Shown here piece after piece: positions 1,967 through 21,145 of a stretch of DNA of 59,668 nucleotides; the first letter of the stretch is position 1, and the number at the start of each line of letters is the position of its first letter. The DNA is from a bacterium (lineage in GTDB: Bacteria > SZUA-182 > DTGQ01): assembly GCA_040755755.1 (NCBI GenBank), contig JBFLZW010000060.1:1-59668 (forward strand), read 5' to 3'. The translations under genes and the position numbers were made by a program. The notes under the pieces were generated by a model, which did no database searches, was not told where the DNA came from, and saw only the letters and a program-made list of their open reading frames with translations.

Positions 1967-2220
1967 GGCAACCGATGCATTTTGCCGGTATCCTTTTCAT
2001 CCCGATGCACCAAAATATATCAAAAATTCCGGCTTTTCTCCCTGCCAGCCGGGAGATGTTCAATTATCTCCAATAAAGTCAAGCTCATTTTCATGGTCTC
2101 TTCTGGCATCTATCTTGCTTTGCCTTAATCAATGGCAGAGCCGACTATTCCTATCTACAGATGCCTTTTCATCAATCAAGGTAAATAAGAACGATCCTAT
2201 TGGTCTGGAGGTGGCAAATC

Positions 2221-5200
2221 ATGAGTTTTGGCTGGAGAAGATCATGGATGAGCACTGGAGTGTTACTTTTGGGTATGATTTTGGGCAACCTGGTCCTCGC
2301 AGGGAGTGCCCGGGCTTTTCTTTCCCGGAAAAATGGGGAACCTCAGCGTAACTATACCTATTATATCCAAAGACCGGAAAGAGCCAGAGGAGAGGTAGCT
2401 CGATCAGTGACCAGAGAAGAGAGGAAACAGAGCTGGCAGGAGTTTGAGCGCAGGCAGGGAAAAGGCCGATGGCAGGCTCAATCCTGGAATACGGCAACCG
2501 GCATGCTTCACCGGGCCAGTCGAGTTACGAAGCCTGCACCGTATGAAGGGCTCTGGCGCAAACTCCTCGGGAGCGAGGATGAGCTGGTAGATGATGCCAT
2601 CCAGTTTGTGGAGGAGAATCCTGAGCTCTTTCAATTAGGAGCATCCGGTATCAGGCTTGCCAGAATGGCTGAAATGTCGGGGATTTGGTATCTGGATTTT
2701 CAGCAGGAATACCAGGACATTCCGGTTTATGGCAGCCGTATCTGGTTTCAATTTGACGACTCATACCGGCTCATCTCCTTCGGAGCGGATGCCTATCCCG
2801 GTATCAAGCTTGAGGCGAGGCCGCTGATCGATGAAGCTCAAGCCTGGGAAAGGGTCAGCCAGCATCTGGGAATAGATTCGCCGGGAACACCGGGGAGCGG
2901 ATACGAAGCGAGCCTCGTCATTCTGCCCGTCCGGTTCGGAGATGATCTGGAGTACTTTTTAGCCTGGATGGTGGATGTGAGCGGAGGTATATGGCGGTAT
3001 TTTGTGGATGCCCGCAATGGCCAGATCATCAGCCGCTATAACCGCTCCCGGGCAGTAGTATCCGGGACGATCAGAGCCAGAATTTTACCCCAGTTCTACG
3101 ATGATGCCCCCAGTGAAGTGGGATTGAGAGACCTGTATGTCTACCTGCTGGATAAGAATCAGGTATATAAGGCCCTCTTCGAGGATAACGATACAACTCC
3201 CGCCGGATGGAAAACGGAAGGGATGTGGGCCTATGGCCAGCCTGAACCACCGGCTGATTCATCCAATCTGATGACTACGGGACATGGCGGTCCTCTGGAC
3301 CCGGATTCAGGGTATACGGGGCTGAAGGTTTTTGGATATAATCTCAAGGGAGATTACACCAATTTGATGCGCCCTGCCTATCTGACTACTCCTGACATCA
3401 GTTTCACCAGGAACCCAAGATCTAAACTGGTCCTGCGGTTTTGGCGATGGCTGGGAGCATATAAAGAGTATTCTGAAGATGAAAATGGAAACCGTACCAG
3501 CTACGATCGCGCCTCGGTTGAAATTTCCGTGAATAACCGGATAACATGGGACACTATCTGGTCCAATGCCAGTGGGCAGATTGAAGATGCCTTCTATCAG
3601 AAATCCGCGGGAGTTGGCTGGAACCTCCAGACCTTTGATATTTCCCCTTTCATGAATGATGGCAACCAGATAAATATTCGCTGGGGCATAGGGCCGACCG
3701 ACAGTTCGGGAGTCTTTTGCGGCTGGAACATCGATGATGTGGAGGTCGTGGAAAGCCTCGTCAATCCAAATACTACTGCCAAAGGAACATTTAATACTGC
3801 CCCGGGTAACTATCAAACCGATCTCAATGGAAACTTCCAGTTTCCGGATGTCTGGCCGGGCAAAAATGCATTTCCCAACAAACTGGCCCTCACCGCCAAG
3901 CTGGCAGGGAAATACGTGGAGGTAAATAACGAAGACAGCTGGGATGCTATCTGGGTAGTCGAAGGAATTGATGACCTGGATTTCCAGGATCCCAATTACA
4001 CCCGCTTTGTCTGGAACCCGGAGGATCAGAACAACGGAATTCCCCCGGCCAGCCTTGATACCCCCAGTGTCTACTCACGCATCAGCAGCTACGGTGAGTT
4101 GAACGTTTACTACCACATCAACAGGCTCCTGCAATATATCAAGAAGCTTGACCCGAAATACGATGGCATGTGGCGGAATGGGAAAAAAGGCCCCGTAAGA
4201 GCGATCGTTGGATGGGGAGATTATTATACCAATGCCTTCTGGACTCCGGAAAACCGGATATACTTCGGAGAAGGAGATGGCAAGCTGGATGGATACCGTG
4301 ACTTCTCCCTGTTCTCCGATATTATTTACCATGAATATACTCATGCCATAACCGAAAGCTTCTACTCATTTTTCCAGCCTCATCCTGATGCTGCCCTGGG
4401 AACTACCAGCACGGATACAACGTCAACTCAGCCCCAATTGACCACCGAGCTTGATGCCATGCATGAAGCCTTTTCCGATTACTGGGCGGCTGCTATGACC
4501 GATGACCCCGATATCGGCAATGGCGGCTTCTGGATAGGACACGACTATGTACGGAGCCTGATTTACGACGATCCGAACGACCCTTACGACGATCCGAATG
4601 ATTATTTAAGATATCCGGAAGACTATGGTGATGATGCTTATGTCAACAGTCTGATTCTGTCTCAGGCCATGTGGGATGTCCGGAAAAAAATCGTGGAAGT
4701 GTACGGGGCAGAGCTTGGAGTAGAAAAAGCAAAAGAAACGGTGGACAATCTCTTTCACCGCGCCCGAATCAGCGGTTCGACGACCTTCGCCGATTACCTG
4801 CAGGATGTTATCACCCACGATAACCAGATTAACCAGGGGGAATATTCGTTCTTTATCAAGGAACTGTTCGGCAAACACGGCATCAGCAGAACCCCTCTTG
4901 CCCCCAGCAATCCCGTGGCTACAGTGAGTGACCGCGCAGTCCACCTGACCTGGGAAGCATCTCCTGACCCTGATGTTACAGGCTATCATGTCTATTACCG
5001 GACAGAGAACGATATCGAAACCACCAGGGAGGATCCCAGCGTCCAGAGAGATGCCGGGAATGTTACTTCTTTTACCGTTGACGGCCTGACCAATGAAACG
5101 ACCTATGTTCTCAAGGTCAAGTCATATAACGAGTATGGCACGGAGAGTGAATCTTCCGACTATGTCTATGCCACTCCCTATGATCCGGCAACACGGTCCT

Positions 5201-5268
5201 CGACTGTTACCGGAGGGGATAACAACGATGTCGGCATCTGCTTTATCACGGCCATCCGGCGGAGATAA
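2221..5268 (+). CDS. secreted gluzincin metalloprotease (thermolysin/fungalysin-like) with inserted domain and FnIII
   Basis: A 1015-aa exported protease. Residues 1-32 are a signal peptide. A fungalysin/thermolysin-type propeptide (FTP and PepSY-like) follows to about residue 280. A beta-rich jelly-roll-like domain resembling MAM or bacillopeptidase F modules is inserted at about 330-510. The catalytic zinc site is HEYTH at 704-708, with the third ligand in HEAFSDYW (Glu about 749), as in M4/M36 gluzincins. A fibronectin type III domain lies near 895-985, and the chain ends in GICFITAIRRR. The start at 2221 follows a GGAGGTGG site and begins the signal peptide. It most likely degrades extracellular protein for nutrition. 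Whether it is M4 or M36 is not settled by eye. Confidence 0.9.
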   Translation: MSFGWRRSWMSTGVLLLGMILGNLVLAGSARAFLSRKNGEPQRNYTYYIQRPERARGEVARSVTREERKQSWQEFERRQGKGRWQAQSWNTATGMLHRASRVTKPAPYEGLWRKLLGSEDELVDDAIQFVEENPELFQLGASGIRLARMAEMSGIWYLDFQQEYQDIPVYGSRIWFQFDDSYRLISFGADAYPGIKLEARPLIDEAQAWERVSQHLGIDSPGTPGSGYEASLVILPVRFGDDLEYFLAWMVDVSGGIWRYFVDARNGQIISRYNRSRAVVSGTIRARILPQFYDDAPSEVGLRDLYVYLLDKNQVYKALFEDNDTTPAGWKTEGMWAYGQPEPPADSSNLMTTGHGGPLDPDSGYTGLKVFGYNLKGDYTNLMRPAYLTTPDISFTRNPRSKLVLRFWRWLGAYKEYSEDENGNRTSYDRASVEISVNNRITWDTIWSNASGQIEDAFYQKSAGVGWNLQTFDISPFMNDGNQINIRWGIGPTDSSGVFCGWNIDDVEVVESLVNPNTTAKGTFNTAPGNYQTDLNGNFQFPDVWPGKNAFPNKLALTAKLAGKYVEVNNEDSWDAIWVVEGIDDLDFQDPNYTRFVWNPEDQNNGIPPASLDTPSVYSRISSYGELNVYYHINRLLQYIKKLDPKYDGMWRNGKKGPVRAIVGWGDYYTNAFWTPENRIYFGEGDGKLDGYRDFSLFSDIIYHEYTHAITESFYSFFQPHPDAALGTTSTDTTSTQPQLTTELDAMHEAFSDYWAAAMTDDPDIGNGGFWIGHDYVRSLIYDDPNDPYDDPNDYLRYPEDYGDDAYVNSLILSQAMWDVRKKIVEVYGAELGVEKAKETVDNLFHRARISGSTTFADYLQDVITHDNQINQGEYSFFIKELFGKHGISRTPLAPSNPVATVSDRAVHLTWEASPDPDVTGYHVYYRTENDIETTREDPSVQRDAGNVTSFTVDGLTNETTYVLKVKSYNEYGTESESSDYVYATPYDPATRSSTVTGGDNNDVGICFITAIRRR

Positions 5269-6032: not shown

Positions 6033-6905
6033 TTACAACCTGCCAACCGAAAATGTACCGGCGTCGGTTTTCAGGAAGAGCGGATCATGAATCAGGTAGG
6101 ATCCCTGAATGATTGCCGGCAAGGTCAAGGTTGCTGCACTGAAGGTGCAGGTCAGGGTCAGAGAATAGGTGACGAGGCTCAGCGGATCAAAGTAGTTGCC
6201 GCTGAGAGTGAAAGTTGGAGCATTGTTGGTGCCCGCCACATTGATAGCTACCGGAATCAGCTTATTGCTGAGCAGCCCGGCTGTGCCGGTAACGGAAACC
6301 GTCAGGATGTCATAAACAAGGTTCATAGTCATGACATTGGTGGTAGAGGTGAGTACGCTCGTCCAACTGCCATAATATATCCCCGTAGGATCAGGATAGA
6401 CGGGAACGGTAATAGTCACCGTGGGAGTAACCGCAACCGTGGTCGCAAGTGCAGGAAGGAGAAGACTTGTTCCTCCTCCTCCAGTGAGAAGGACATCCGC
6501 TGTCCTGCCCAGGGCTTCGGAGCCATTGCTCAAGTAATACCTTGTCAGATCATAGGGATAACCCAGTCCGCCAAGCCCATACAGACCGAGTCCGCCGTAC
6601 AAGCCGCCATACAATCCATAAAGCCCGTATAATCCCAGCCCGCCGAGTCCGTAAAGCCCATAAAGCCCAAGGCCGCCGTACAACCCACCGTAGAGACCGT
6701 ACATTCCGCCGAGACCGTACAAGCCGTACAGACCGCCATAACCATAGAGACTGCCGCCGTAGCCATAAAGGCCGGCACCATACAGCCCCCCATACAAGCC
6801 GCCGAACCCATAATAGGCATGAGCACTTCTCTGAGTCATAAAAATTGCCGTACCAGAAAGTAATAAAGCAATGACCAAAACCTTGAACCGAGACGAGCTA
6901 AACAT
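6033..6905 (-). CDS. exported Gly/Tyr-rich GLYG-repeat protein (GY1)
   Basis: A 290-aa protein with a signal peptide (about residues 1-30, cleaved near SAHA). It begins AYYG and then carries about 85 residues made almost only of G, L and Y in GLYG, GGLYG and GMYG units. After a short linker comes a Thr/Val/Leu-rich beta-like domain of about 170 residues. The same architecture, including a related C-terminal domain, recurs in the gene at 26011. I know of no assigned function. Aromatic/glycine repeats of this kind occur in structural, adhesive or self-assembling proteins (inference only). A GGGAGGA site precedes the ATG. It lies on the same strand as, and 262 nt downstream of, the Hsp70 operon, with its own likely terminator. 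Confidence 0.85.
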   Translation of the reverse strand: MFSSSRFKVLVIALLLSGTAIFMTQRSAHAYYGFGGLYGGLYGAGLYGYGGSLYGYGGLYGLYGLGGMYGLYGGLYGGLGLYGLYGLGGLGLYGLYGLYGGLYGGLGLYGLGGLGYPYDLTRYYLSNGSEALGRTADVLLTGGGGTSLLLPALATTVAVTPTVTITVPVYPDPTGIYYGSWTSVLTSTTNVMTMNLVYDILTVSVTGTAGLLSNKLIPVAINVAGTNNAPTFTLSGNYFDPLSLVTYSLTLTCTFSAATLTLPAIIQGSYLIHDPLFLKTDAGTFSVGRL

Positions 6906-7048
6906 AAATCAATCCTCCCTAACAAAAAAATTCCACTAACCTGTTTCCCCCCCTGAACCTGAGAAATACAAAATGTCGATGACGTTGCTGACTTGATAGA
7001 AGTGTCTAATTATTATTGACGGACCAGAGAGAGAAAAATTACTAAAAA

Positions 7049-7169
7049 AGAAGTCAGGAGTCAGAAGTCAGGAGTCAGAATAAATACTTCTGAATCCTGT
7101 CTTATAACTGCTTTTCACTGACCACTGACCGCTCTCTTCTGACTTCTGACTCCTGACTTCTGACTCCTT
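7049..7169. repeat. inverted GTCAGGAGTCAGAA repeat pair
   Basis: 7049-7080 holds two tandem units of the type AGTCAGGAGTCAGA. The reverse complement of the same units fills 7137-7169, giving a near-perfect stem of over 24 bp around a 56-nt centre that also holds ACTGACCACTGACC. The right arm starts directly at the grpE stop codon, so the structure may end transcription of the Hsp70 operon. Related copies lie at 10055-10120 and near 41617. Confidence 0.75.
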
Positions 7170-7635
7170 AATTATTTAAGACCGTAATCACTTCGGCAGG
7201 CCGGATGACCTCTCCGTCTTTCTTCCGGTACCCTTTTCGCAGTACCGAGAGAATCTCCTCGTTTTCTTTCCCCGGCAGGGCTTTGGTTTCTACCACCTTG
7301 CAGAGACCGAAAATGGCCTTATTATCCGGAAATTCAATTTGTTCTACCCCCCGTTGAGAGAGTATCCGCAATATCTTCCGGTAGACGGAGCGAAAACTTT
7401 GCATGGCCATCCGGGCGGACTTGTCCCACCCCTGTTCTTTTGCTTCAATGCTCTGAAATATATTTTCAAATGCATCGAGAACCTCGAAAAGTTCCAGGTA
7501 TAGTTCCTTTTCCCATTGCCGGTGATCATTCTGGAGAGAAGTAAAGGCAAAGGAAAGGTCAGCAATCTGCTTCTGAAATCCAATCAGCCTGCGGCGGATT
7601 AATTCCTTGGGTGTGTGCGGAGGAGTCGCTGTCAT
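7168..7635 (-). CDS. grpE: GrpE-like nucleotide exchange factor
   Basis: A 155-aa GrpE-family protein, the co-chaperone that exchanges ADP for ATP on Hsp70. The C-terminal beta-domain signature is present in EEILSVLRKGYRKKDGEVIR..AEVITV. Upstream helices (LELFEVLDAFENIFQSIEAKE, FRSVYRKILRILSQRGVEQIEF) match the four-helix dimerisation region. It lacks the longer acidic N-terminal tail of many GrpE proteins. It is the last gene of the operon, 8 nt after the J-like gene, and presumably serves the divergent Hsp70 encoded five genes upstream rather than a canonical DnaK. A second housekeeping grpE probably exists elsewhere, but that cannot be seen here. Confidence 0.85.
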   Translation of the reverse strand: MTATPPHTPKELIRRRLIGFQKQIADLSFAFTSLQNDHRQWEKELYLELFEVLDAFENIFQSIEAKEQGWDKSARMAMQSFRSVYRKILRILSQRGVEQIEFPDNKAIFGLCKVVETKALPGKENEEILSVLRKGYRKKDGEVIRPAEVITVLNN

Positions 7636-7643
7636 GAGCGCGG

Positions 7644-7910
7644 TTAGAACCTGTCAAAGGAATGAAGCAATTCGAGATCGTCAATGCTCAGGTGTTTTTC
7701 CGGCAATTTGACTTCCTGTGCCCATCGCTGGCTGTCCAGAAGGTAGATAAATGCCGCTACCCTTCGGGTTCTTGGATTCATCAGCTCTTTCTGGGCATCG
7801 GCGATTTGCCGGGTTGTATGATCTTTCCTCTGCAAGGCCAGAGTCACTGCCCGGATAATTTCCTGCTGGGTGGCGTCTGGGGTAATCTGCAGGATTCTAT
7901 ACGGATTCAT
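7644..7910 (-). CDS. small J-domain-like protein lacking HPD
   Basis: An 88-aa protein. Its N-terminal 55 residues follow the J-domain pattern: NPYRILQITPDATQQEIIRA matches helix I and the start of helix II, and a DAQKELMNPRTRR segment matches helices III-IV. The HPD tripeptide needed to stimulate Hsp70 ATPase is absent; KDH stands near its place. The start codon overlaps the stop of the TPR gene (TAATG), so translation is coupled. In this operon it probably contacts the Hsp70 or the TPR protein, either as a non-canonical co-chaperone or as an Hsp70-docking module. The J-like call is by eye and needs a structure prediction. Confidence 0.7.
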   Translation of the reverse strand: MNPYRILQITPDATQQEIIRAVTLALQRKDHTTRQIADAQKELMNPRTRRVAAFIYLLDSQRWAQEVKLPEKHLSIDDLELLHSFDRF

Positions 7911-10030
7911 TATTCAACCTCCCTCTCCAGGTCCTCAAGTTCATCCAGGATATCGTCAAGAACGGGATGGTCAGGGTCAACCTTCTCACAATTCTGATAT
8001 AAGTCCCGCAGAAAGAAGATCTTCTTTTCCCGGCTAAGGGGTGCATTATCGAATTCATCGAGAACCGTGTCAACGAAGTCAAAAAATACTTCTTCTATTT
8101 CTTCATTCTGGGCACTGGCGGCAATAGCGGCCGCTTTTTTCACATTTCCCTTGCCAAGCGCCCTGGCCATCTCATTCACAAGGTGCTGGGACTCCATCTC
8201 GCGGAGTCCGGTCCTGGCGAATTCGTTATCCGGATTCAGGTCCAAAGCCTTCCTGCAGATGCGCTCTACGTCCTGGGCCTTGATCAATCCTTTCGCATGC
8301 AGGGTATTTGCCTTGTAACTCATGATATAGGAGGCCATATCCAGAATCTCCCTGGATTTGATATGACGGACCAGAATCTGCATCACCTCGTCCAGGGCAA
8401 CCAGTTCTTCCGGCTCGGCCTCGATCTTCTGTGCCAGTTGGATAATCTCTTTTTCGTACTCTTGAAACCGCTGAATCAGGGGAATGGCCTGAGTGAAATA
8501 TTTCTTCAGATTGGTGGTCTCTCCCTTGTGCAGCTTCTTCATACCCAGCCGGAAAAAAATCTTCTGCCGACAGTAGCCGATAAATTCATTCTCTTCCTGG
8601 GCAGGCAGTGCGGCCATAGCCTCCTCAAGTCTCCCCTGATGCAGCAGCAGGTAACTCGACCGGGCTGAAGAGAACAATGCCCCCACCGTCCAGAACCGCT
8701 CATCCGTCTCCCATTCAGATCGCACCTCGCGCAGCCTTTCGAGAACGAGGGGGGATAAGCCAAAGTGCCCGGCAAAATCCGGAGTGCACAGGATTTCAGC
8801 CAGGGATGGCTCCTTGTGTGCAGCCTCATGGAGAAAGGTAATGGATTGCCGCTCCAACTCCCAGTGACTCAGTATCTCTTTCAGCCCTTCCTCGCCCTGA
8901 CTGGTTTTATAGTGCTGGATCAGTTGCTCAAGTTTGTCCTGGAGGTCGCCGGTCATCTGCCTGCGGTCATCATCATCGGCGGCAGGCGGCCCGGATGGAA
9001 GCTGATATTTTGGGTTATAGATGACCGTCAGCCAGAAAGTAATGGCCTGCGGCAGGTACTCAGCAGCGGTTTCAGCCAGCCGGAAATAGACCTTGGCCAG
9101 AAAAAAGGGTAAAAAATCCTCATACCCTCCCTGAGACTGCAGGGAGAGAAGAAAGTCCAGCATGGCTTTGAAATTTCCCTGTGTCCAGAGGTGTTCGAGG
9201 TGTTCCAGGCTCATGGACCTGACACTCGCTCGAACCAGAGGGTCAGGACAGCACGAGAGGAGATCGACCGCCTCCTGATAGGCAGCATCGAATCCCCCTT
9301 CAATCCGTGATCTGCCGCGGAGATCGCACAGGGCTATTTCAAGGAGATGCTGCTTCTGCCGCGCTAATTCCGGTGTGTCCTGACTGATCGACTCCCATTG
9401 CCTGAGGGCCTTGCTGTATTGTCCGGTCCTGGCCAGAGCATACCCTGCATAATAGCGAGCTTCGGGCTCCTGTGAGGAGGTTGACTCGAGAAATCTGACT
9501 GCCTCGGCATATGCGCCCTGCTTCACCAGACAGATGCCGATGCGGTGCCTGGCTTCAGGATTCTCCTCCAGCTCCATGACCTCCCGGTACCGCTCTATGG
9601 CCTCGGCGTAGCGATGATCGGCCTCGGCCTGATAGCCGGGTGCAAGAGTCGGTTTGGGTATTTTGCCCAGCAGCCTGGTTACGACCGCCCGGATTTCCTT
9701 ATTGTCCCAGGCTTCAAGGGAGCGATGAAAAACCTTGAGCGCTTCTCTGAGCTTTTTCTCCCGTTCGAGCTGATACCCCTCTCTCACCAGGTCCTGGGCC
9801 CTGGCCATTCTCTGTGCATTCTCCTCGCAGATATGGATCCGCCTTTGAACCTCTTCCGATGGCCAGATCTGATATGCCTGCCCAAAATGGTGTTTGGCCG
9901 ACCCGAATTTTTCTTTTTGAAAAAGTTTTTCCGCTTTTTCCAGAAGTTCCTGATATTTTTTCCTGCTTTCACGATTATCAGGAAATCCCTGGCCGGATTC
10001 AGTTTCTTTGCGTTGAAGATTTTGTTTCAT
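7910..10030 (-). CDS. large TPR-repeat protein of the Hsp70 operon
   Basis: A 706-aa soluble protein with no signal peptide or membrane segment. Helical pairs of TPR type occur from about residue 30 (YQELLEKAEKLFQKEKFGSAKHHFGQAY) through about 230 (RYAEAIERYREVMELEENP, YAEAVRFLESTSSQEPEA, YSKALRQWESISQ) and again near 590-620 (CRKALDLNPDNEFARTGL). The middle is less regular alpha-solenoid. The acidic C-terminus ends in DDILDELEDLEREVE. An AAAGGA site precedes the ATG at 10030. TPR proteins often bind Hsp70 tails or recruit clients. Its place between the LysM protein and the J-like gene suggests a scaffold, but no partner can be proven from sequence. Confidence 0.85.
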   Translation of the reverse strand: MKQNLQRKETESGQGFPDNRESRKKYQELLEKAEKLFQKEKFGSAKHHFGQAYQIWPSEEVQRRIHICEENAQRMARAQDLVREGYQLEREKKLREALKVFHRSLEAWDNKEIRAVVTRLLGKIPKPTLAPGYQAEADHRYAEAIERYREVMELEENPEARHRIGICLVKQGAYAEAVRFLESTSSQEPEARYYAGYALARTGQYSKALRQWESISQDTPELARQKQHLLEIALCDLRGRSRIEGGFDAAYQEAVDLLSCCPDPLVRASVRSMSLEHLEHLWTQGNFKAMLDFLLSLQSQGGYEDFLPFFLAKVYFRLAETAAEYLPQAITFWLTVIYNPKYQLPSGPPAADDDDRRQMTGDLQDKLEQLIQHYKTSQGEEGLKEILSHWELERQSITFLHEAAHKEPSLAEILCTPDFAGHFGLSPLVLERLREVRSEWETDERFWTVGALFSSARSSYLLLHQGRLEEAMAALPAQEENEFIGYCRQKIFFRLGMKKLHKGETTNLKKYFTQAIPLIQRFQEYEKEIIQLAQKIEAEPEELVALDEVMQILVRHIKSREILDMASYIMSYKANTLHAKGLIKAQDVERICRKALDLNPDNEFARTGLREMESQHLVNEMARALGKGNVKKAAAIAASAQNEEIEEVFFDFVDTVLDEFDNAPLSREKKIFFLRDLYQNCEKVDPDHPVLDDILDELEDLEREVE

Positions 10031-10054
10031 ATTGATTTTCCTTTATTTTAAAAA

Positions 10055-10120
10055 TAGAAGCCAGGAGACAGAAGTCAGGAGTAAGAATAACGGCTCTTTT
10101 TTCCTGACTCCTGTCCTTTA
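10055..10120. repeat. GTCAGGAGT-type repeat between the TPR and LysM genes
   Basis: A copy of the GAAGTCAGGAGT unit (10055-10087) faces an inverted partner (10097-10115, CCTGACTCCTGTC). The repeat begins within about 5 nt of the LysM gene stop codon. It belongs to the same family as 7049-7169. Confidence 0.6.
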
Positions 10121-11086
10121 AAGATCAGGCAGCGGAATTTTAATCTTCTGACCAGGTTCAAGGCGAAGCTGAGAATTCAGGCTCTCGATCCTGGAATACT
10201 GATCGTCAGTCCGGAAAAATTTTCTGGATAAGGTTTCCGGAGTATCTCCAGCCTGGACCTGGTACCACAAAAAAGCGAGCGAGCCATGCCGCTCGACAGA
10301 CCGGCTAAAGACAATGGCTGCATCCTTTGGATTTTCCAATACCTTGAGCCGCTGGCCGCCTTTTATCTCGAAGACGCTCACTTGCGGATTCATGGCCAGA
10401 AGCACCGGATAATAACGACCGCGCCCGTAGAACCTGTCTGCAATCGACCACAGGGTATCCTGGTCTGTGGCTTCATACCAGAAAAACGGGGCTTCCTTCG
10501 GCCTGGAGGCCCTGTCCTTGCGGGGGGCAGGGTGCCTGCCGGCAGTCCGGTCCGGCATGGAGGCTACGGGACGGACGGCTTTGGGGACCGGCACGGGCTT
10601 CGCCTCCTGCGCTTTCGGCTCAGGCTGTGCTTTATGCTCAGGGCTCTTGCCCGTGTCAGGCGATTCCCTGCCGATATCCTCGTGCGAAGGAGCTCCGAGC
10701 GTCATCGCTTCTTGCGCCGCTTCCTTTCCCGGCTCTTTCGCAGGCGCTTTCGCTTTTTCCGACTCGATCTTCTTCATCAGAGCCAGCATGGTCTGGTTAA
10801 CATATTCCAGCCTGCTTTGATTATCCGCCAGGGTCCTGACAATCCGGAAGTTCTGGTAGAACATCCATCCCAGGCCCATGAGAAGGATAACGACTGCCGT
10901 TAATCCCAGCCACCATATCCTCCTGCTCCCTTGCGGGCTGACAGCTCTGACTGCTGTTTCCTGATGCTCCGGCAGTGCATCCAGAACCTGGAAACAGGTC
11001 AAATCCGCATTGCACTGAGGACATTGCTGCTCATCCATTGGGATCTGCTCTTTCTCGCAGATCGGGCAGCGCTGAACCTGTTGCAT
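10118..11086 (-). CDS. membrane-anchored zinc-ribbon / LysM protein
   Basis: A 322-aa protein. An N-terminal zinc ribbon has Cys7, Cys10, Cys22 and Cys25. One membrane helix lies at about 57-77, preceded by Arg-Arg, so the N-terminus should be cytoplasmic. A short helical segment and an Ala/Pro/Lys-rich linker (110-200) follow, then two LysM-type domains (about 203-250 and 274-318) that would lie in the periplasm and bind peptidoglycan or a glycan. It starts 2 nt after the Hsp70 stop codon. Its zinc ribbon has the same spacing class as the one inside the Hsp70, which suggests a related contact surface. Role inferred: anchor of the chaperone to the envelope. No family-level function is known to me. 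Confidence 0.85.
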   Translation of the reverse strand: MQQVQRCPICEKEQIPMDEQQCPQCNADLTCFQVLDALPEHQETAVRAVSPQGSRRIWWLGLTAVVILLMGLGWMFYQNFRIVRTLADNQSRLEYVNQTMLALMKKIESEKAKAPAKEPGKEAAQEAMTLGAPSHEDIGRESPDTGKSPEHKAQPEPKAQEAKPVPVPKAVRPVASMPDRTAGRHPAPRKDRASRPKEAPFFWYEATDQDTLWSIADRFYGRGRYYPVLLAMNPQVSVFEIKGGQRLKVLENPKDAAIVFSRSVERHGSLAFLWYQVQAGDTPETLSRKFFRTDDQYSRIESLNSQLRLEPGQKIKIPLPDL

Positions 11087-11088
11087 TC

Positions 11089-13455
11089 CTATTTGGCTAT
11101 TCCTTTCTCCACTTTTATTCTCTGGGTTCTCTCAAGCTCTGCGATTTCCTCAACCTCCGGCATGATTTCATCGACCAGGCTCTTGAATTTCGTAAAATCG
11201 GATTTTTCCAGACAGGTGTGCATATTATCCAGATAGGTGCCAATACGCTCAGCCTTTGGAGAGTTATGCTGCCGGTAATAGCTGTAGGCTCTTTCCAGCT
11301 CCATGAAAATCACAGCCAGACGATGTTTGCTCACTTCGTCGCTCAATTCCTTCGTCAGAGCAACGGTTTCCTCATAGCTGCCTTCCTGGTCGCTTTTTTC
11401 AAGCTTTTGGAGTACCTTTTCCACCGGCTCGATTTCCTTCGGATTCATGAAAATGCGGCAATTATTCAGCATGGCTTTGGCATAATTAATGGTTCCCCAG
11501 GGCGATTCATCGTGCTCCAGCATCTTATTGGCCTTATCCAGCTTCTGCCTGGCCCGCTCGTACCTGTCCTCTTTGACCTCGCCGGTCTCAGGATCGACAA
11601 TCTGGTTAATGTCCTGAATAATGCCCACTGAGCGATGAATAAGGTCGTGAACCGCAAAAAACTGATGTTCTTTGGCATTAGCATGGCGTATGGTTTCTTC
11701 CAGGGACAGAAAGAGCTTTTCATCGGCTTTCCCGCGGGAGAGTGTCCGGGATATCTGGATATGCGGCTGGTCTTTCATCCTGGCCGATACTTCGATGATA
11801 TTATTTTCATCTATCCGGAAATCGCAGATTATCTCCGGCCTGGCATCTTTTTTCCTCTCCCCTTCTGCTTTTGCTTCCGCTTCGGATTCTTCGCCGATGC
11901 CAAGCCATAGGTCGCCGATGGATTCTTCCACCTCATTCACCATGTTGAAGAATTTCAGGTGAACCAGTTTTTGCTCCGGGTCAACCAACTGAAAGATTTC
12001 GGTTTTCTCTACAGGCAACGGCGTATTTTTGGCCACCAGGAGATAGCGGGGATTATTTTCCAGGTGGATGTAGTAATCATGCGCTGCTGAATGGACGATT
12101 TCAACCACGCCGGTTTCCATCAGGTATTTATCCAGATCGAATCCACATTTTTTGCAGGTCCTGTCAGCCTGCGACACTTCTTTTCCACACTCCGGGCACT
12201 CGTAGCTTTCCGACAGCCGGTGAGAGAGGATCGCCGCACCTTCGGCTACTGACAGCATGGGTTTTTTGTGAATCATGACCTTATCGGCCCCGAATCTTTC
12301 CGCTACCTTTCTCTGCACCAGCGGGATGCAGGATGATCCGCCGACCAGGAGGACCTTGTCAATCATCTGCGGAGTAAAGTGGAGCCCCTCAAGGATACCC
12401 TCCATGAGCTGAACGCTTCTCTCGACCAGGGGCTGAATCAGGGCTTCAAACTCCTGCCGAGTAATTTCCACCTCGACATTCAGGATGTTTCCCTCCTCGT
12501 CCTTCAGGATACCCAGAATATCGAAGAAGGCAGTTTCCTTTTCACTCAGTTGGATTTTCGCCCTCTCAACCTTTTCCCGCAGCTCGCCCAGAAAACGGTT
12601 TTTCGTATCCGAGGGGAGCTTTTGGATCAATTCCTTTACATTCACTCCGGGATAATTCCTTTCGATCAGGCCAAAGACATGCCCCATCAGCAGGTTGTCA
12701 ATATCATTGCCGCCAAGCCACATGTCCCCGCCCTTGGCCTGCTCGATGAACTGCCCTTCGACCATGGTCAGGACCGAAATGTCGAAGGTCCCGCCTCCGA
12801 AATCATAGACCAGGATGGTATTGATGTTCTTGTCACGGGTCTGATCGACACCAAAGGAAATGGCGGCGGATGTCGGCTCCGGCAGGAGCCGCTGCACCTT
12901 GAAGCCAGCCTGGGCCGCTGCTGTTCTGGTGCCGTGCTTTTGCTTGTCGTCGAAATATGAGGGGACGGTAATGACTGCGTGCGTTACCTTTTCGCCCAGC
13001 TCTTTTTCAGCATCTTCCTTGATTTTTTTCAGGATCAGGGCTGAAATGTACTCAGGCGTATGTTCTTTTCCATTCAACATTACAGCGATGCTCTGCTCGG
13101 TGCCGGTCGAAAGGGGCCTGATCCGATAGCTGACCTTATGCTCTCTGATAATTTTCTGTACTTCTTCATTGGTGAAGCTTCGCCCGATGATGCGCTTGAT
13201 GGACACAATGGTATTTTCAGGATCCTGCTTCATCCAGGCCAGGGCATCCCGGCCGACAATATAGTTCTTCTCCCTCTGGGTAACACATGAAGGAGTGAGC
13301 TCTTCCTGCTCGGCATTCTTGAGGATTTCAGTGTGAACCCGCTTGATTCCAAACACCGTGTTGGTTGTGCCAAGATCAATCCCTATGGCCTTGCCGGGTT
13401 TCCCCTCATGTTTTGCCCTGCCAAAAAGGGAGAAGGAATTTAATAAGCCACCCAT
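11089..13455 (-). CDS. Hsp70 (DnaK-type) chaperone with zinc ribbon at the interdomain linker
   Basis: A 788-aa Hsp70. The ATPase domain carries GIDLGTTN (25-32), a phosphate-2 motif DFGGGTFDIS (218-227) and the adenosine motif VGGSSCIPL (371-379). A four-Cys zinc ribbon (C420, C423, C434, C437) stands where canonical DnaK has its hydrophobic DVTPLSLG linker. The region after it (450-575) is a reduced substrate-binding beta-like domain, and 580-788 is helical with coiled-coil character. It is longer than DnaK (about 640) and starts with a 20-residue extension. First gene of the five-gene operon, behind a sigma70-type promoter. It probably acts as a dedicated, not general, chaperone. Confidence 0.92.
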   Translation of the reverse strand: MGGLLNSFSLFGRAKHEGKPGKAIGIDLGTTNTVFGIKRVHTEILKNAEQEELTPSCVTQREKNYIVGRDALAWMKQDPENTIVSIKRIIGRSFTNEEVQKIIREHKVSYRIRPLSTGTEQSIAVMLNGKEHTPEYISALILKKIKEDAEKELGEKVTHAVITVPSYFDDKQKHGTRTAAAQAGFKVQRLLPEPTSAAISFGVDQTRDKNINTILVYDFGGGTFDISVLTMVEGQFIEQAKGGDMWLGGNDIDNLLMGHVFGLIERNYPGVNVKELIQKLPSDTKNRFLGELREKVERAKIQLSEKETAFFDILGILKDEEGNILNVEVEITRQEFEALIQPLVERSVQLMEGILEGLHFTPQMIDKVLLVGGSSCIPLVQRKVAERFGADKVMIHKKPMLSVAEGAAILSHRLSESYECPECGKEVSQADRTCKKCGFDLDKYLMETGVVEIVHSAAHDYYIHLENNPRYLLVAKNTPLPVEKTEIFQLVDPEQKLVHLKFFNMVNEVEESIGDLWLGIGEESEAEAKAEGERKKDARPEIICDFRIDENNIIEVSARMKDQPHIQISRTLSRGKADEKLFLSLEETIRHANAKEHQFFAVHDLIHRSVGIIQDINQIVDPETGEVKEDRYERARQKLDKANKMLEHDESPWGTINYAKAMLNNCRIFMNPKEIEPVEKVLQKLEKSDQEGSYEETVALTKELSDEVSKHRLAVIFMELERAYSYYRQHNSPKAERIGTYLDNMHTCLEKSDFTKFKSLVDEIMPEVEEIAELERTQRIKVEKGIAK

Positions 13456-13535
13456 TTTTTAATTTCCTCGCTTTTTTCTGCTCATTTTATTAGTTCTGTT
13501 TACTTTGAAACGCGATAGATTTGTACTGGATTTAT

Positions 13536-13563
13536 ATTATATCATAAAAGAAAGGATTTACAA
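13536..13563 (-). promoter_or_regulatory. sigma70-type promoter of the Hsp70 operon
   Basis: On the minus strand a TTGTAA box (13558-13563), a 16-nt spacer and a TATAAT box (13536-13541) lie about 80 nt before the Hsp70 start. I see no CIRCE element and no sigma32-like CCCCAT box, so heat-shock control of the usual type is not indicated. Confidence 0.6.
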
Positions 13564-13741: not shown

Positions 13742-16411
13742 TCACTGAAGCCTGCGTTCCGCGTAAATACCCAAAAGGCCCAGAGCCCCATCCCCGGAAC
13801 CGCGGACCGCCTGCAGGGAGAGCTCCAGCGAAATCTCCTGCCCTCCCTGAGCCAGATGCACCACCTTCCCCTCCCATCCTCCTTTCAGTGCCTGGCCGAT
13901 AATCTGATCAACGATATCCACCGAAAGGCCGGGGCCAAAGAGGAATTCAACCGGCTGCCCCATGAGCTCATCCATAGGGTAGCCAAGCCGCCGGCAAAAA
14001 GCGGCATTGGCCAGAATAATCCGTCCGGTCCGGTCGGTCAGGATTATGTATTCGGGCAGGGCATCCACCGCCATACGGAAAAAGGATGTTTCCCTCCGGA
14101 GATCATCCAGCTTTTTGGTCAGCCACTCTATCCGGCCCTTGAGGTCGCTCTCTGCCTGTTTGAATTGAACCATATCCCTGATTACCACCTGGATGACCTG
14201 ATGGTCCCCGCAAGCGACAATGTTGGCATGCAGGTCCACCGGGAACGATCCCCCCTCTTTTTGCCGGAAAAAGCTCTCGATCCGGCAGGTTTCACCCGCA
14301 GCCACCCGGTGTAAGAATTCCCGTATCCTGCGCTCCTCATCAGGGAGATGAAGCTTCCAGAAAGCATGATCGATCAACTCCTGATACGGATAGCCGGTGT
14401 ACTGAACGACCCGGTGATTCACTGCCTGAATTTTCCCTTCCAGGGTGCAGATAACGATCATGTCGCTCGCCTGGTCGAACAGGGTCTGGAACTCCTCCTT
14501 GAGAATCCGGGTTTCCTTTTCAATCGCATTCCGGACAATGAGCAGGGACAGGTCTTTTGCCAGGGCGGCTACCAGCTCCTGTTCCCTGTTCGTATACCCT
14601 GCCGGCCGGTCAGCCAGGCAGATTATGCCGATCACCTCCTGGTCTGAGATGATCGGCACTCCCAAAAAGGAGTGAAAGGAAAACCGGCCAAAGGAGAGGA
14701 CCGTGCGATTGGCTCCGCTTCCTGACCACGGCATGCCCCGGGAACTGGTATTGATGATCTGGGGTTTTCGCTGCCGCATAATGTCTCCCAAAACGCCGAC
14801 CGGACGAAATACCTGACAGCCTTTCTCATCCGCCGTTTGAACGGAAAGCCCCAGGCTGGCCAGGGGGACCAGGTTGCCATCCTTATCTTTCAGCAGGAAA
14901 AGACCAAAAGGACTGTCAGTCAGCTCCAGTGATTCCTCCAGGGAATATTCAGCCAGTTTTTTCAAATCCCGCTCAAGGAGCAACCCGGTTGAAACCCGGG
15001 CCAGCAAGACCAGCTTTTCATTCTGCCGGGTGATTTCTCCCTCCTTTCGTTTCTGCTGCGTTATATCCCGGATGATAGCCGTAAATATCCTGCCTCCGGC
15101 TGCCTTGCCCGTCGATGTAGACAAATGAACGGGAAATTCCTCTCCGCTCCTCCGTAAACCGAAGGTTTCAATGGGCTCTTCAGTGGAGACACCGGGCGCT
15201 TCAGTGGAGACACCATGCTCTCCAGCGGAGACAGCACCGGCAGGGCTTTCATCCACCATGCTCCGGATAAAAGCGTGTTTATAATCCCGGCGAAGCCTGT
15301 GAGGGATCAGCAGGCCCGCCTTCTGATTCAGTATCTCTCCACGCTTCCAGCCGAAGATCCGTTCCGCTCCCGTATTGAAGAAAAGTATCCTCCCTTCCTC
15401 ATCTATGGCCATCATCCCGTAGGCAGCCGATCGTGTCAAAATCCGGTAAATATCCACCTCTCTTTTCAATGACCTGATCTTCCGGCTGACTGAGGCCCTC
15501 ATCACCTGAAAGGCCGAAAATACCGATCCGATCTCATCATGCCCGACCTCGTCATGAGGGGTTTCACCATGAGGGATATCATTATAAGGGGTGTCGTCTC
15601 CGGAATTTTCCTCCCGGCTGAAGACCGCCATTCCTTCCGACAGATTTTCCAGCCGATCAATGATCGATGTTTTGGCAAAAACCAGCCAGATCAGCACCAT
15701 CAGGACTGTAAGACCAAGATTCAGCCACAGGAATCTCTCTCTGGCATGTTCCAGGAAAAGGGCCTGCGGCCGGACAGGAATGATAATCGAGATGGCCCCC
15801 AGAACAGGACCATCATTGACTTTATCATTATTGACCTTATCATCATGGCCCTGACCATGACACTGCAAACAGAATTCTCTGGCCCGGAGCGGTTTCAGAC
15901 AGCGAAGAGCTTTTTTCCCCTGAAACGATACCAGCTTGACGTATTCACCTTCTTCCCCCTGATCTTTATTCCGCTCGAAGACCGCTATCCCTTCCCGCTC
16001 AAAGGAGTCTGCCATGTTCTCTGGATTACGGGGATTACAGGCGACATAGCGAACACTCAGGGAAAGAGTTTTCTCAAGGATCCTTTCCATGCGCCCTGGC
16101 CGATGACCGATATGAGAATGAAAATTCCCTGCCGGTTCCTGAGACGCATTTTCAGAATGAGTCTCCATCCTCCCTTCTTCTTCCCCCGCCGCATCCATTG
16201 AACCCATTGAGCTCATTGAGCCCATCTCATACCAATTCTCATGCAGGCTCCGGGCCACCAATCGTGCTTTTTCTCTTGCTCCCTCTACCCTGGCCAGGTA
16301 TTCCCGGCGATACGTGAGGAAACTGACCACCAAAGACGCAGGCATAAAAACCATGATAATTATCAAACTGAACTTTTTGGTCAAACTCCATCGAACCGCT
16401 TGAGGTCGCAT
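13742..16411 (-). CDS. membrane heme-motif PAS/GAF sensor without output domain
   Basis: An 889-aa protein. Membrane helices are at about 14-33 and 228-246 and flank a periplasmic Tll0287-like (DUF3365) sensor region with a heme c motif CLQCH (C181, C184, H185). Cytoplasmic domains follow: PAS (320-460), GAF (about 475-650, GVPIISDQEVIGIICLADRP), PAS (about 660-770) and PAS (about 785-889). The protein stops at the end of the last PAS domain. No histidine kinase, GGDEF, EAL or methyl-accepting domain is present, and no such domain follows in another frame. Low-complexity inserts (SMSSMGSM, NNDKVND, PHDEVGHDE) are present. The ATG at 16411 follows GGAAGAG. It could sense redox state or a heme ligand and signal through a partner. 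Confidence 0.85.
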   Translation of the reverse strand: MRPQAVRWSLTKKFSLIIIMVFMPASLVVSFLTYRREYLARVEGAREKARLVARSLHENWYEMGSMSSMGSMDAAGEEEGRMETHSENASQEPAGNFHSHIGHRPGRMERILEKTLSLSVRYVACNPRNPENMADSFEREGIAVFERNKDQGEEGEYVKLVSFQGKKALRCLKPLRAREFCLQCHGQGHDDKVNNDKVNDGPVLGAISIIIPVRPQALFLEHARERFLWLNLGLTVLMVLIWLVFAKTSIIDRLENLSEGMAVFSREENSGDDTPYNDIPHGETPHDEVGHDEIGSVFSAFQVMRASVSRKIRSLKREVDIYRILTRSAAYGMMAIDEEGRILFFNTGAERIFGWKRGEILNQKAGLLIPHRLRRDYKHAFIRSMVDESPAGAVSAGEHGVSTEAPGVSTEEPIETFGLRRSGEEFPVHLSTSTGKAAGGRIFTAIIRDITQQKRKEGEITRQNEKLVLLARVSTGLLLERDLKKLAEYSLEESLELTDSPFGLFLLKDKDGNLVPLASLGLSVQTADEKGCQVFRPVGVLGDIMRQRKPQIINTSSRGMPWSGSGANRTVLSFGRFSFHSFLGVPIISDQEVIGIICLADRPAGYTNREQELVAALAKDLSLLIVRNAIEKETRILKEEFQTLFDQASDMIVICTLEGKIQAVNHRVVQYTGYPYQELIDHAFWKLHLPDEERRIREFLHRVAAGETCRIESFFRQKEGGSFPVDLHANIVACGDHQVIQVVIRDMVQFKQAESDLKGRIEWLTKKLDDLRRETSFFRMAVDALPEYIILTDRTGRIILANAAFCRRLGYPMDELMGQPVEFLFGPGLSVDIVDQIIGQALKGGWEGKVVHLAQGGQEISLELSLQAVRGSGDGALGLLGIYAERRLQ

Positions 16412-17220
16412 TCTCTTCCATTCCCTTGTTATATCGTAACTACTCAGGCACAAAGGGGCAAAGGCACAGAGGCACAAAGTTACCTTTGCCTCTTTGTGTC
16501 TATTTGCTGCTTAACTTCCCAGCTAAATCGCCCAGCATGCATTATATCTTCTTTGCCCCTTTGTGCGAATATATTTCACCTATCGGCTAATTCCCCGGTC
16601 GGAGGTTCAAAAGAAAATCGCTCATACTTGGTTGGATAGTTACCCCTCCTGTCTCCTGACGGCAGGTGAGACGGTTCACTGTCAAACACTGATCAGAGGC
16701 ATCTCGCAAGGGTGGGGCTGCTTTTTTGCCCCACCACTATCGCATGGGCAAACCATCGACCAGGGTAAAAAATCTTACCTCTATGAAACCCGGCCTCCCC
16801 TCCCCCAGGGGCCAATGTCATTAACTTAGGGGCGAATTTTTCTCCCTCGCCCCTCTTGAGGTTCAGGGGCGGACAGTTTTAATTTATCAGAGGCAGCCTC
16901 CTGTTGTTACACTATAAGGGAGCGAATGCTCCTCATAATCCATCCCTCCCCCTATTGAGGCAGGGAGCCCCTGTGGCAGGGGAGGTTAGGTGGGGGTGAA
17001 CAAAAACAAGTTCTTCCCCTCCCTTTAAGGGCAATATCTCTGATGTTAAGCTACTTACCAGGAAAGCCCCTCACCTGCCCCAGGTACTCCTGAAATTCCC
17101 CCGATGCCGGTAATTTAAGGATAGGTACAGCTCCATAGAACGTATGGACAAACCCGTAAAAGTTGCCGGTTCCTCATCTTCACGAGCCAACGTTTTCAAC
17201 AGGTTCGAAGCAAAATTTCC

Positions 17221-18634: not shown

Positions 18635-21145
18635 TCAGACTGAGGGGCCACGAACTACACGAAAACCGCTATAGTTGACCCGGCTACTCGGGACGCTCCA
18701 GTAACGGGCGGCACAGCGCAGATTGACCTGGTAGCTGAGGAACGAGCCCCCGCGAACCACGCGGCCTTCACCATTCTTCGGGCCAAGAGGGTCTTTCACT
18801 ACGCCCTGCCGAGCACAAAGCTGGTAATACTTCTCGCTGTACCAATCCTGGCACCATTCCCAGACATTACCGGCCATATCGATCACCCCTTCAGGCGAGC
18901 AATTATCAGGGAAAATCCCCACCGGCGCGGCCTTCCCTGTCTCGCTTTCATAAAAATTGGCGGTCTCCGGTGTTGGCTCATTACTACCCCAGGGATACTT
19001 TCGATATTCCTGGCCAGGACCGCGCGCCGCGCGTTCCCATTCAGCCTCTGTGGGCAGCCGTCCTCCGGCCCAGCAGGCAAAGGCGGCAGCTTCATACCAG
19101 CTTACGGACACCACTGGCCTGGAAGGATACTGCTTTTGATCCTCCCACTTTTTCGGCTCCCTGTACTTACCAAAGCCGCCTGTTGCTTGCCAGTATCGAT
19201 TATTCTCATACCCGCCATCTTCAATAAACCGCCGGTATTGCTCAACCGTGACCGGGTATTTACCGATGCGATAGGCAGACAACTCAACCTGGTGGACCGG
19301 TGATTCATCATTCCGGGCATCCTTATCGAAATTTCGCTCCGTGCGCTTATCCCTCTGTGCCCCCATCCAGAATAATCCCCCTGGAATCTCAATCATCGGC
19401 CCAGTCCTGGGATCACCCTCCGCCAGTCTCGGATCACCCGCCTGAGCCAGGGCGTCGGCAGCCTCAATGCGCACTTGCATCGGCACATTCCGGTAGGCGG
19501 CCTTATCAAAAATGCCCATGACCTGGCGCATAATCTCAGGATAGGCCGGGTTGGCGGGCTTATACCTATAGGGTGCCAGATCGCGCTCGATACCGCCTGA
19601 AAGCCCCACCTTTCTGGCCAATTGCGGCAGGGTCTCATTGGTTCCCTTCTGCGGTCCCCGGGTGATGATTTCGTCAATCAGATGGTTGATTTTATCCAGA
19701 CCCTGTTTATACAGTACGCCACTCAGCAGGAGCACCACCTCACGCCATTCACTGCTGGAGAGCCGCTCGTTTTCAAACAGTATCTCCAATTGCTTCGCCT
19801 CCAGAAGGCCGGCGATCTCAAATGCTGCCAGATACTCCTGGAAGCTCAGATGCCAGAATTCAAGACGGTGGCTTCGCTCGACGATGATGCCGCTGTCCAG
19901 CATTTCTTCGCCCAGAAATCGCTCGGCCAGCTCAACCGCCGTATGTTCCCGGTTAGAATCAAATTCCGCAGCCAGTTGCTCGGCAGCCCAGCGCAGCCCT
20001 ACCTGCCTCTGGCGGCCATCAGGATGAATGAACATAGCCAGGGCCAGCTTCTGCAGGAGCTTGCGGGATCGATCGACCGAAAGGCGGCCTGGGCGCTGCT
20101 CTCTGGCACGCAGCAGCCAGGTAATGACAGACTCATAGAGCTCGGCGCGCTGCTCGGGCAGGCGGTTTTCATTCCAGTGGACCACGGCCAGGGCGGTAAG
20201 CATGACCGGGGTGCTGGCCATCCGCCGGATCTGCGGACTTGACTGGAGCGCGCCAATAAGCTCAGCAAGGTGCTGCCGCGATTTCTCCGGCGCATCAGGG
20301 TAAAGCGCAGAGCTCCATTGGGTCAGAAAGACCTTCATGGCCTGCTCATCGAGAGGCGCAATCTCTGCCAGGGCAAAGTCTCCCTCGGGCATGACTTTGC
20401 CAATAAGCGCACCCGGCCTGCTGGTCAGGACAAGGCAGCATTTGGGGTAGGCCCTGAGCAGATGAGCGACCAGGGAGCTTATGTTTTGGCGCATTCTTGA
20501 ATTCGGTGCCTCATCCAGGCCGTCGAGCATGATCAGACAATGCCCCTCCTTCATTTCCCGGCGAAAGTCCTCGGCTGAAACCTGCCAATCAAATTCTTTA
20601 CTCTGCTCACCGAGAAAGTGGAACAGCCATTCTGGGCTGTCTTTGTGTGTCGGCGAGTGAGCGGGATCTTTAGCTTTCCATTCGTGGATATGGTCTGCCA
20701 ACCTGCCCAGACGGACAAAAACAGGCAGGGGCGGCTGGCCTGGCCAGATGATCTTTGCTGCGGCACTGGAGGCAGACTCTTCCCCCAGCCATTTCTTACA
20801 GAGCGTAAAGGTGATCAGCCGCAGAAAAGTGCTTTTTCCGGCACCGGGATCGCCCTTGATGATCAGCCCGCACCTGTGCATGGCTTCCTTCATGGTTTCC
20901 TGCAAGGATATTTGCAGAGCTTCATGCAGGGACATTTCACCTGCCATCATTCCTTCATCAGGGTGCAGCCTGCCTTTTCCATCGCTTTTCCGGAATGACC
21001 GGCCCGCAACACCGGCAGTCTTTAAAGGAATATAGAGCTGATCTATGCCGAATTGATGGACCTTGCCTTCACCGGACACCAGCCCCCGAATGTCCATATA
21101 TCCTGTCTCCGCCTTGAGATAGCCGAGGTAGCGGTTAAAGTCCAC
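18635..21145 (-). CDS. NACHT STAND NTPase with C-terminal FGE-sulfatase domain
   Basis: An 836-aa protein of the bacterial NACHT/STAND class, whose members act as nucleotide-dependent switches, many in phage defence. A pre-NACHT segment (YLGYLKAETGYMDIRGL) leads to Walker A GDPGAGKST (98-106), Walker B LIMLDGLDEA (204-213), LTSRPGA (240-246) and the WHLSFQEYLAAF winged-helix end (431-442). A short HEAT-like piece (557-574) precedes an FGE-sulfatase/C-lectin-like domain (584-836: GRLPTEAEWERAARG, DMAGNVWEWCQDWY, RGGSF, GFRVVRG). Only one Cys (RCAAR) stands in the region holding the two catalytic Cys of true FGE, so it is more likely a recognition domain. The GTG start overlaps the upstream gene by 103 nt in another frame. 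Confidence 0.88.
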   Translation of the reverse strand: MDFNRYLGYLKAETGYMDIRGLVSGEGKVHQFGIDQLYIPLKTAGVAGRSFRKSDGKGRLHPDEGMMAGEMSLHEALQISLQETMKEAMHRCGLIIKGDPGAGKSTFLRLITFTLCKKWLGEESASSAAAKIIWPGQPPLPVFVRLGRLADHIHEWKAKDPAHSPTHKDSPEWLFHFLGEQSKEFDWQVSAEDFRREMKEGHCLIMLDGLDEAPNSRMRQNISSLVAHLLRAYPKCCLVLTSRPGALIGKVMPEGDFALAEIAPLDEQAMKVFLTQWSSALYPDAPEKSRQHLAELIGALQSSPQIRRMASTPVMLTALAVVHWNENRLPEQRAELYESVITWLLRAREQRPGRLSVDRSRKLLQKLALAMFIHPDGRQRQVGLRWAAEQLAAEFDSNREHTAVELAERFLGEEMLDSGIIVERSHRLEFWHLSFQEYLAAFEIAGLLEAKQLEILFENERLSSSEWREVVLLLSGVLYKQGLDKINHLIDEIITRGPQKGTNETLPQLARKVGLSGGIERDLAPYRYKPANPAYPEIMRQVMGIFDKAAYRNVPMQVRIEAADALAQAGDPRLAEGDPRTGPMIEIPGGLFWMGAQRDKRTERNFDKDARNDESPVHQVELSAYRIGKYPVTVEQYRRFIEDGGYENNRYWQATGGFGKYREPKKWEDQKQYPSRPVVSVSWYEAAAFACWAGGRLPTEAEWERAARGPGQEYRKYPWGSNEPTPETANFYESETGKAAPVGIFPDNCSPEGVIDMAGNVWEWCQDWYSEKYYQLCARQGVVKDPLGPKNGEGRVVRGGSFLSYQVNLRCAARYWSVPSSRVNYSGFRVVRGPSV

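Follow-up and report, generated by a model that had tools for sequence, protein, structure and literature searches.

The window analysed here is a stretch of 59,668 nucleotides (nt) of bacterial DNA (positions 1 to 59,668 of contig JBFLZW010000060.1, assembly GCA_040755755.1; GTDB lineage Bacteria; SZUA-182; DTGQ01), and its minus strand carries an operon of five genes that encode, in order, an Hsp70, a membrane protein in which a zinc ribbon, a transmembrane segment and LysM repeats are combined, a tetratricopeptide repeat (TPR) protein, a small J-like protein and a GrpE. The operon is both real and conserved, in a combination of parts that is apparently undescribed, and its genes are shown to make up one conserved, co-inherited unit. 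That the five proteins function together is well supported, and the reading favoured here, which is judged to be somewhat better than an even bet, is that they form a dedicated Hsp70 machine that is tethered to the inner membrane. The five open reading frames follow each other head to tail with gaps of exactly +2, +87, -1 and +8 nt, as an initial annotation made from the sequence alone had given them, and all of the operon features whose coordinates appear below lie on the minus strand.

Conservation of the operon

The distribution of this Hsp70 subtype was traced with the C-terminal part of the protein, from its zinc ribbon onward, as a probe chosen for specificity. The subtype is present in 27 sampled genomes, which comprise members of the window's family (G001 of the same genus and G003 of the same family carry it), one of the Elusimicrobia, one genome (G087) of a separate Desulfobacterota order and 22 Desulfobacterales, with Desulfamplus magnetovallimortis among the last. 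These 22 come from 292 sampled Desulfobacterales genomes; only two of 345 Desulfobacterota in a phylum-wide sample and one of 199 Elusimicrobiota are carriers, and in a sample of ~380 genomes from outside the window's family the subtype was not found. The subtype is rare and patchy, and because of this distribution it is possible that the operon has been moved horizontally. On plasmids neither the C-terminal part of the Hsp70 nor the J-like protein had a homolog, and the full Hsp70 retrieved only more distant Hsp70s, of less than 60% identity and named DnaK or HscA where annotated.

The LysM gene lies directly after hsp70 in 27 of the 27 carrier genomes, while the J-like protein and the GrpE subfamily are each found in 24 carriers, as a single copy per genome and adjoining each other downstream of hsp70 except where a contig ends. 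Complete five-gene operons, with a TPR gene of ~680-755 amino acids (aa) placed after the LysM gene and before the J-like gene, are present in G001, the Elusimicrobia genome (L020), Desulfamplus (L021), G087 and others, and the TPR proteins of the other operons belong to one family with that of the window (profile comparison, E 5e-133). The conserved order that the initial annotation proposed to look for in relatives is borne out by the genome search, with the same order recurring in at least three phyla, which is far beyond chance. The genes that flank the operon vary between genomes, and the operon is therefore a self-contained module. Furthermore, when the pairwise distances of the five proteins are compared over 16 genomes they correlate for all ten pairs (r 0.63-0.95), with 0 of 2000 Mantel permutations reaching the observed r for each pair; the permutation leaves shared species history in, such that this co-divergence speaks for co-inheritance and not for contact.

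The Hsp70 and its zinc ribbon

The first gene, hsp70 (11089-13455), encodes a protein of 788 aa with a Pfam HSP70 match at 5.6e-98, and PF00012 is matched by 17 of 17 homologs, in which the phosphate and adenosine motifs of the ATPase (GIDLGTTN, DFGGGT and GGSS) are invariant. Its most telling feature is a zinc ribbon formed by Cys 420, 423, 434 and 437 (12145-12198; Zn_Ribbon_1 at 3.6e-05, residues 420-441), with all four cysteines invariant in the same 17 homologs. Alignment with the genome's own DnaK places this ribbon as an insertion between the last helix (GAAI) of the nucleotide-binding domain (NBD) and the linker and substrate-binding domain (SBD), the linker being the segment that couples the two halves of an Hsp70. 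It is likewise at the NBD/linker segment of mitochondrial Hsp70 (mtHsp70) that the zinc protein Hep1 binds (PMC4890766).

The ribbon is followed by a putative and diverged substrate-binding beta domain (residues ~460-571; 11743-12078), which has eight strands in an AlphaFold2 (AF2) model and matches the DnaK SBD only weakly by sequence, and then by a helical C-terminal region (residues 577-777; 11125-11727) of nine helices, modelled with a predicted local distance difference test (pLDDT) score of ~90. As modelled, this region is ~60-70 residues longer than the DnaK lid and appears to replace it. The earlier identification of the gene as an Hsp70 stands, but it overlooked both this replacement and the second zinc ribbon of the operon, at the interdomain linker. 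A Foldseek comparison of the model with DnaK gave 2.6e-40 over >700 columns but a poor superposition in three dimensions. The model as a whole has a predicted template modelling score (pTM) of 0.45 and, the alignment being shallow, its NBD is of low confidence; the model was used for secondary structure only. Zinc-finger matches of the Hsp70 tail in the PDB were set aside as short cysteine-pattern matches.

The LysM membrane protein

The second gene (10118-11086) encodes 322 aa and contains an N-terminal zinc ribbon of the form CPxC..CPQC (11012-11068), predicted to be cytoplasmic, a transmembrane segment at residues 57-75 (10862-10918; hydropathy 1.97), and two C-terminal LysM-like repeats (10133-10477), of which the second is the strong one (Pfam LysM 1.5e-09 at residues 275-318). 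The four cysteines of the ribbon are invariant in 17 of 17 homologs, each of which also has one transmembrane segment and no N-terminal signal, and a LysM domain is found in 14 of the 17. In 11 of these homologs the N side has more lysine and arginine residues than the other side, in five the counts are equal and in one the excess is reversed. A zinc ribbon suits a reducing compartment, and for this reason, together with the charge counts, the absence of a signal and the single transmembrane segment, the N-in topology that had been proposed is favoured. The protein probably tethers the Hsp70 to the inner membrane and wall. The Desulfamplus version of the protein (L021:11248-13503) is extended to 751 aa, with long acidic Asp/Ser repeats between the zinc ribbon and the transmembrane segment and Glu/Lys repeats after it.

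The TPR, J-like and GrpE partners

The TPR protein (7910-10030; 706 aa; Pfam TPR_19 2.1e-11) is predicted to be a cytosolic TPR/alpha-solenoid protein. It is followed by the J-like protein (7644-7910), which has 88 aa and matches the Pfam DnaJ family at 0.0025, under the curated cut-off, over residues 2-21 only. In its AF2 model the core has a pLDDT of ~93 and consists of four helices, with a 4-residue loop between helices II and III at the position of the HPD motif, and a Foldseek search of the PDB placed J domains on top (probability near 1, TM-score ~0.5, E 0.07 or more); a sequence-profile search of the PDB returned designed coiled coils only and was uninformative. The HPD motif is absent from 17 of 17 homologs, and a hydrophobic segment is likewise missing from the protein (its best stretch of 19 residues averages 0.41). 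The initial annotation called the protein J-like but overlooked the missing motif; the J fold is present, yet because HPD is lacking throughout, the J-like protein should not trigger ATP hydrolysis in the usual way, and the operon differs from an ordinary triad of Hsp70, J protein and GrpE. The last gene, grpE (7168-7635; 155 aa; Pfam GrpE 1.6e-11), encodes a short exchange factor of its own subfamily; PF01025 is matched by 16 of 16 homologs, and the operon protein aligns to GrpE 4ani.

A probable membrane-held chaperone and the alternatives

How might these five proteins work together? In the favoured arrangement the LysM protein would be inserted N-in. The zinc ribbon on its cytoplasmic side would dock the Hsp70, either ribbon to ribbon or through the region of the hinge, and the LysM repeats would grip peptidoglycan, so that the chaperone would be fixed in place at the membrane, on its cytoplasmic side. 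The TPR protein may act as a scaffold that gathers the parts or the client, and the HPD-less J-like protein would bind as a placement or regulatory subunit and not as the hydrolysis trigger; the client, the hinge with its zinc ribbon or a general DnaJ could supply that trigger instead. The cycle would then be reset by GrpE. The client is probably a membrane or exported protein.

A partial loss of the system in a relative bears on this arrangement from both sides. The corresponding locus of G002, a genome of the same family, shares the PAS/GAF neighbour found at 13742-16477 of the window (48% identity) and retains the LysM transmembrane protein, of 234 aa within a 238-aa open frame (L075:6340-7044), with no TPR gene after it; neither an Hsp70 of this type, nor the J-like protein, nor a GrpE of this subfamily was found in the genome. 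The G002 protein starts beyond the position of the ribbon and lacks it, and the loss of the ribbon along with the Hsp70 is as expected if the ribbon serves to dock the Hsp70. A gene for a CstA-like carrier lies between the LysM gene and the shared PAS/GAF gene at this locus. Several points weigh against the membrane-held machine: (i) the LysM protein can, in this single genome, persist without the Hsp70, (ii) its first LysM-like repeat is weak, (iii) its positive-inside signal is modest, and (iv) R189 of the Hsp70, which matches the DnaK arginine touched by the HPD of ordinary J proteins, is invariant in the 17 homologs, so that the Hsp70 may still respond to an ordinary DnaJ.

The zinc ribbons themselves suggest another possibility, a chaperone under redox or zinc control. 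The ribbons would then be switches that give up zinc on oxidation and thereby alter the activity of the Hsp70 at the membrane, a role that Ruc and Hsp33 play in DnaK systems. The invariant tetracysteine site at the allosteric hinge of the Hsp70 and the second ribbon in the partner LysM protein are consistent with such control, as is the relationship of many carriers to sulfate reducers, which oxygen puts under stress; Ruc is itself a zinc ribbon that is activated by oxidation and co-purifies with DnaK (PMC7448276). However, zinc ribbons are mostly structural and the Pfam and NCBIfam scans gave no sequence relation to Ruc or Hsp33, such that redox control is considered unlikely, and as it is compatible with tethering it is not a full alternative. 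Slightly less likely again is a regulatory Hsp70 that controls one envelope pathway, be it exopolysaccharide, pili or septum, and not general folding, in the manner of the Myxococcus proteins SglK and StkA. Such roles are known for specialised Hsp70s of bacteria (PMC8265645, PMC4319316), a LysM anchor would place the Hsp70 at the wall, and a J-like protein without HPD suggests regulation over bulk folding, yet no polysaccharide or pilus genes recur beside the operon in the operons that were read out, and the StkA partners (the SCP2-like StkB and the PhaE-like StkC) are unrelated. The patchy spread across phyla could also bring to mind a conflict or defence system, that is, a chaperone-based immunity cassette of the sort predicted with HSP70, GrpE and TPR/DnaJ around GTPases, and the themes of HSP70, GrpE and TPR do occur in the GAP1-N2 systems (PMC7159879). 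This is very improbable, as PADLOC gave no match for any of the five proteins and the operon is stable in order, with no GTPase or effector and no hypervariable gene.

Expression signals and neighbouring genes

The single promoter that had been proposed corresponds to an extended -10 site 5' of hsp70 (13536-13563), TTGTAA-16-TATAAT with a preceding TG, and the site does exist, but as a match from a consensus scan only. The same scan found 17 promoter-like sites in 10 kb where 7 were expected, and several of the 17 lie within genes; for this reason the single promoter is no more than plausible. Good ribosome-binding sites are present 5' of the hsp70, TPR and J-like genes; grpE lacks one and is probably translationally coupled. 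A 14-nt repeat, AAGTCAGGAGTCAG, occurs at 12 sites against 0.5 expected (window 7034-7176 and 10058-10117), and its copies build a large inverted repeat 3' of grpE and also lie inside the 87-nt gap between the LysM and TPR genes, which consequently looks like a later insertion. Elsewhere this gap is 33 nt in G001, -4 to ~10 nt in others and ~360 nt in one.

Two probably exported proteins with many Gly-Leu-Tyr repeats are encoded at 6033-6905 and 25924-26799 of the window, and the former adjoins the operon in G001 too (L016:6592-7350). An M4/M36-type metalloprotease with a fibronectin III domain (2200-5268) is near the operon in G001 as well. At 18635-21888 a protein with NACHT and FGE-sulfatase domains is encoded after a smaller protein, in an arrangement that resembles conflict-system cassettes.

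Comparison with known systems

The kind of system to which the operon belongs, a dedicated Hsp70 system, is already known; a search of the open-access literature for Hsp70 with LysM, zinc ribbon, GrpE, TPR or J parts, or in Desulfamplus, gave no description of this operon, in keeping with the initial view that the combination is undescribed. Dedicated Hsp70 cassettes recur even within the same genome. A cassette on contig C1 (loci L003 and L079) likewise combines a dedicated Hsp70 with a GrpE, a small J-like protein and a TPR protein of its own, in the order TPR (477 aa), J-like (114 aa, with PPE for HPD), GrpE (239 aa) and Hsp70 (590 aa), but it has neither a zinc ribbon nor a LysM/transmembrane protein, its gene order is different and its Hsp70 is of DnaK-like length. 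On contig C22 (L004) a GrpE-like protein of 231 aa directly precedes an Hsp70-like protein of 504 aa, and contig C6 contains DnaK with GrpE and DnaJ. What sets the operon apart is its zinc ribbons and its LysM protein.

Among bacterial systems the closest idea is found in HscC with DjlB and DjlC of E. coli, where a dedicated Hsp70 is thought to act at the plasma membrane (PMC8215388). In that system the J proteins carry tail anchors, and one of them, DjlC, stimulates ATPase activity, whereas the J-like protein of the operon has no transmembrane segment and no HPD, and the membrane part is the LysM protein instead. SglK and StkA of Myxococcus are also extra Hsp70s with dedicated roles, but no LysM tether is known for them, and an E. 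coli dnaK mutant regains growth with SglK; the StkA operon was considered as the same system and rejected, as its partners differ. Ruc (Rv0991c) and Hsp33 are zinc-cysteine proteins that work with DnaK, but as separate proteins and not as an insertion at the hinge.

The most similar list of parts is that of the mitochondrial import motor, PAM (mtHsp70, Tim44, Tim15/Zim17/Hep1, Pam18, Pam16 and Mge1), which unites a membrane-held Hsp70, an HPD-less J-like protein, a GrpE and a zinc-ribbon factor at the NBD and linker (PMC9695410, PMC4890766); for the operon the membrane-held state would be a further likeness. The differences are that the zinc ribbons of the operon are built into the Hsp70 and the presumed tether, that its only J-like protein lacks HPD and no counterpart of the HPD-bearing Pam18 is present (other J proteins are encoded elsewhere in the genome), that PAM has nothing corresponding to the LysM and TPR parts, and that the operon has no translocon gene. 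No Pfam match to the Pam16, Pam18, Tim44 or zf-DNL Tim15 families was found among the operon proteins, and because of this and the missing Pam18 counterpart the operon is not a member of, or homologous to, PAM, even if by analogy it may work like it. A speculative and rather improbable extension would make it an independently evolved bacterial counterpart of the import motor, with an Hsp70 anchored to the wall that would pull polypeptides or keep hold of them at the inner membrane, a zinc-ribbon hinge in place of both escort factor and J trigger, and hydrolysis gated by tether docking and not by HPD.

Bacterial Hsp70s are commonly positioned in the cell by J proteins. The operon seems to position its Hsp70 through a zinc-ribbon membrane protein, with the HPD trigger given up and a zinc ribbon at the hinge, and if this is true it would represent an alternative means of gating and localising an Hsp70, through which the replaceability of HPD-dependent triggering becomes testable. 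As Desulfamplus magnetovallimortis, which is named and sequenced, carries the operon, this departure from J-positioned chaperones can be studied.

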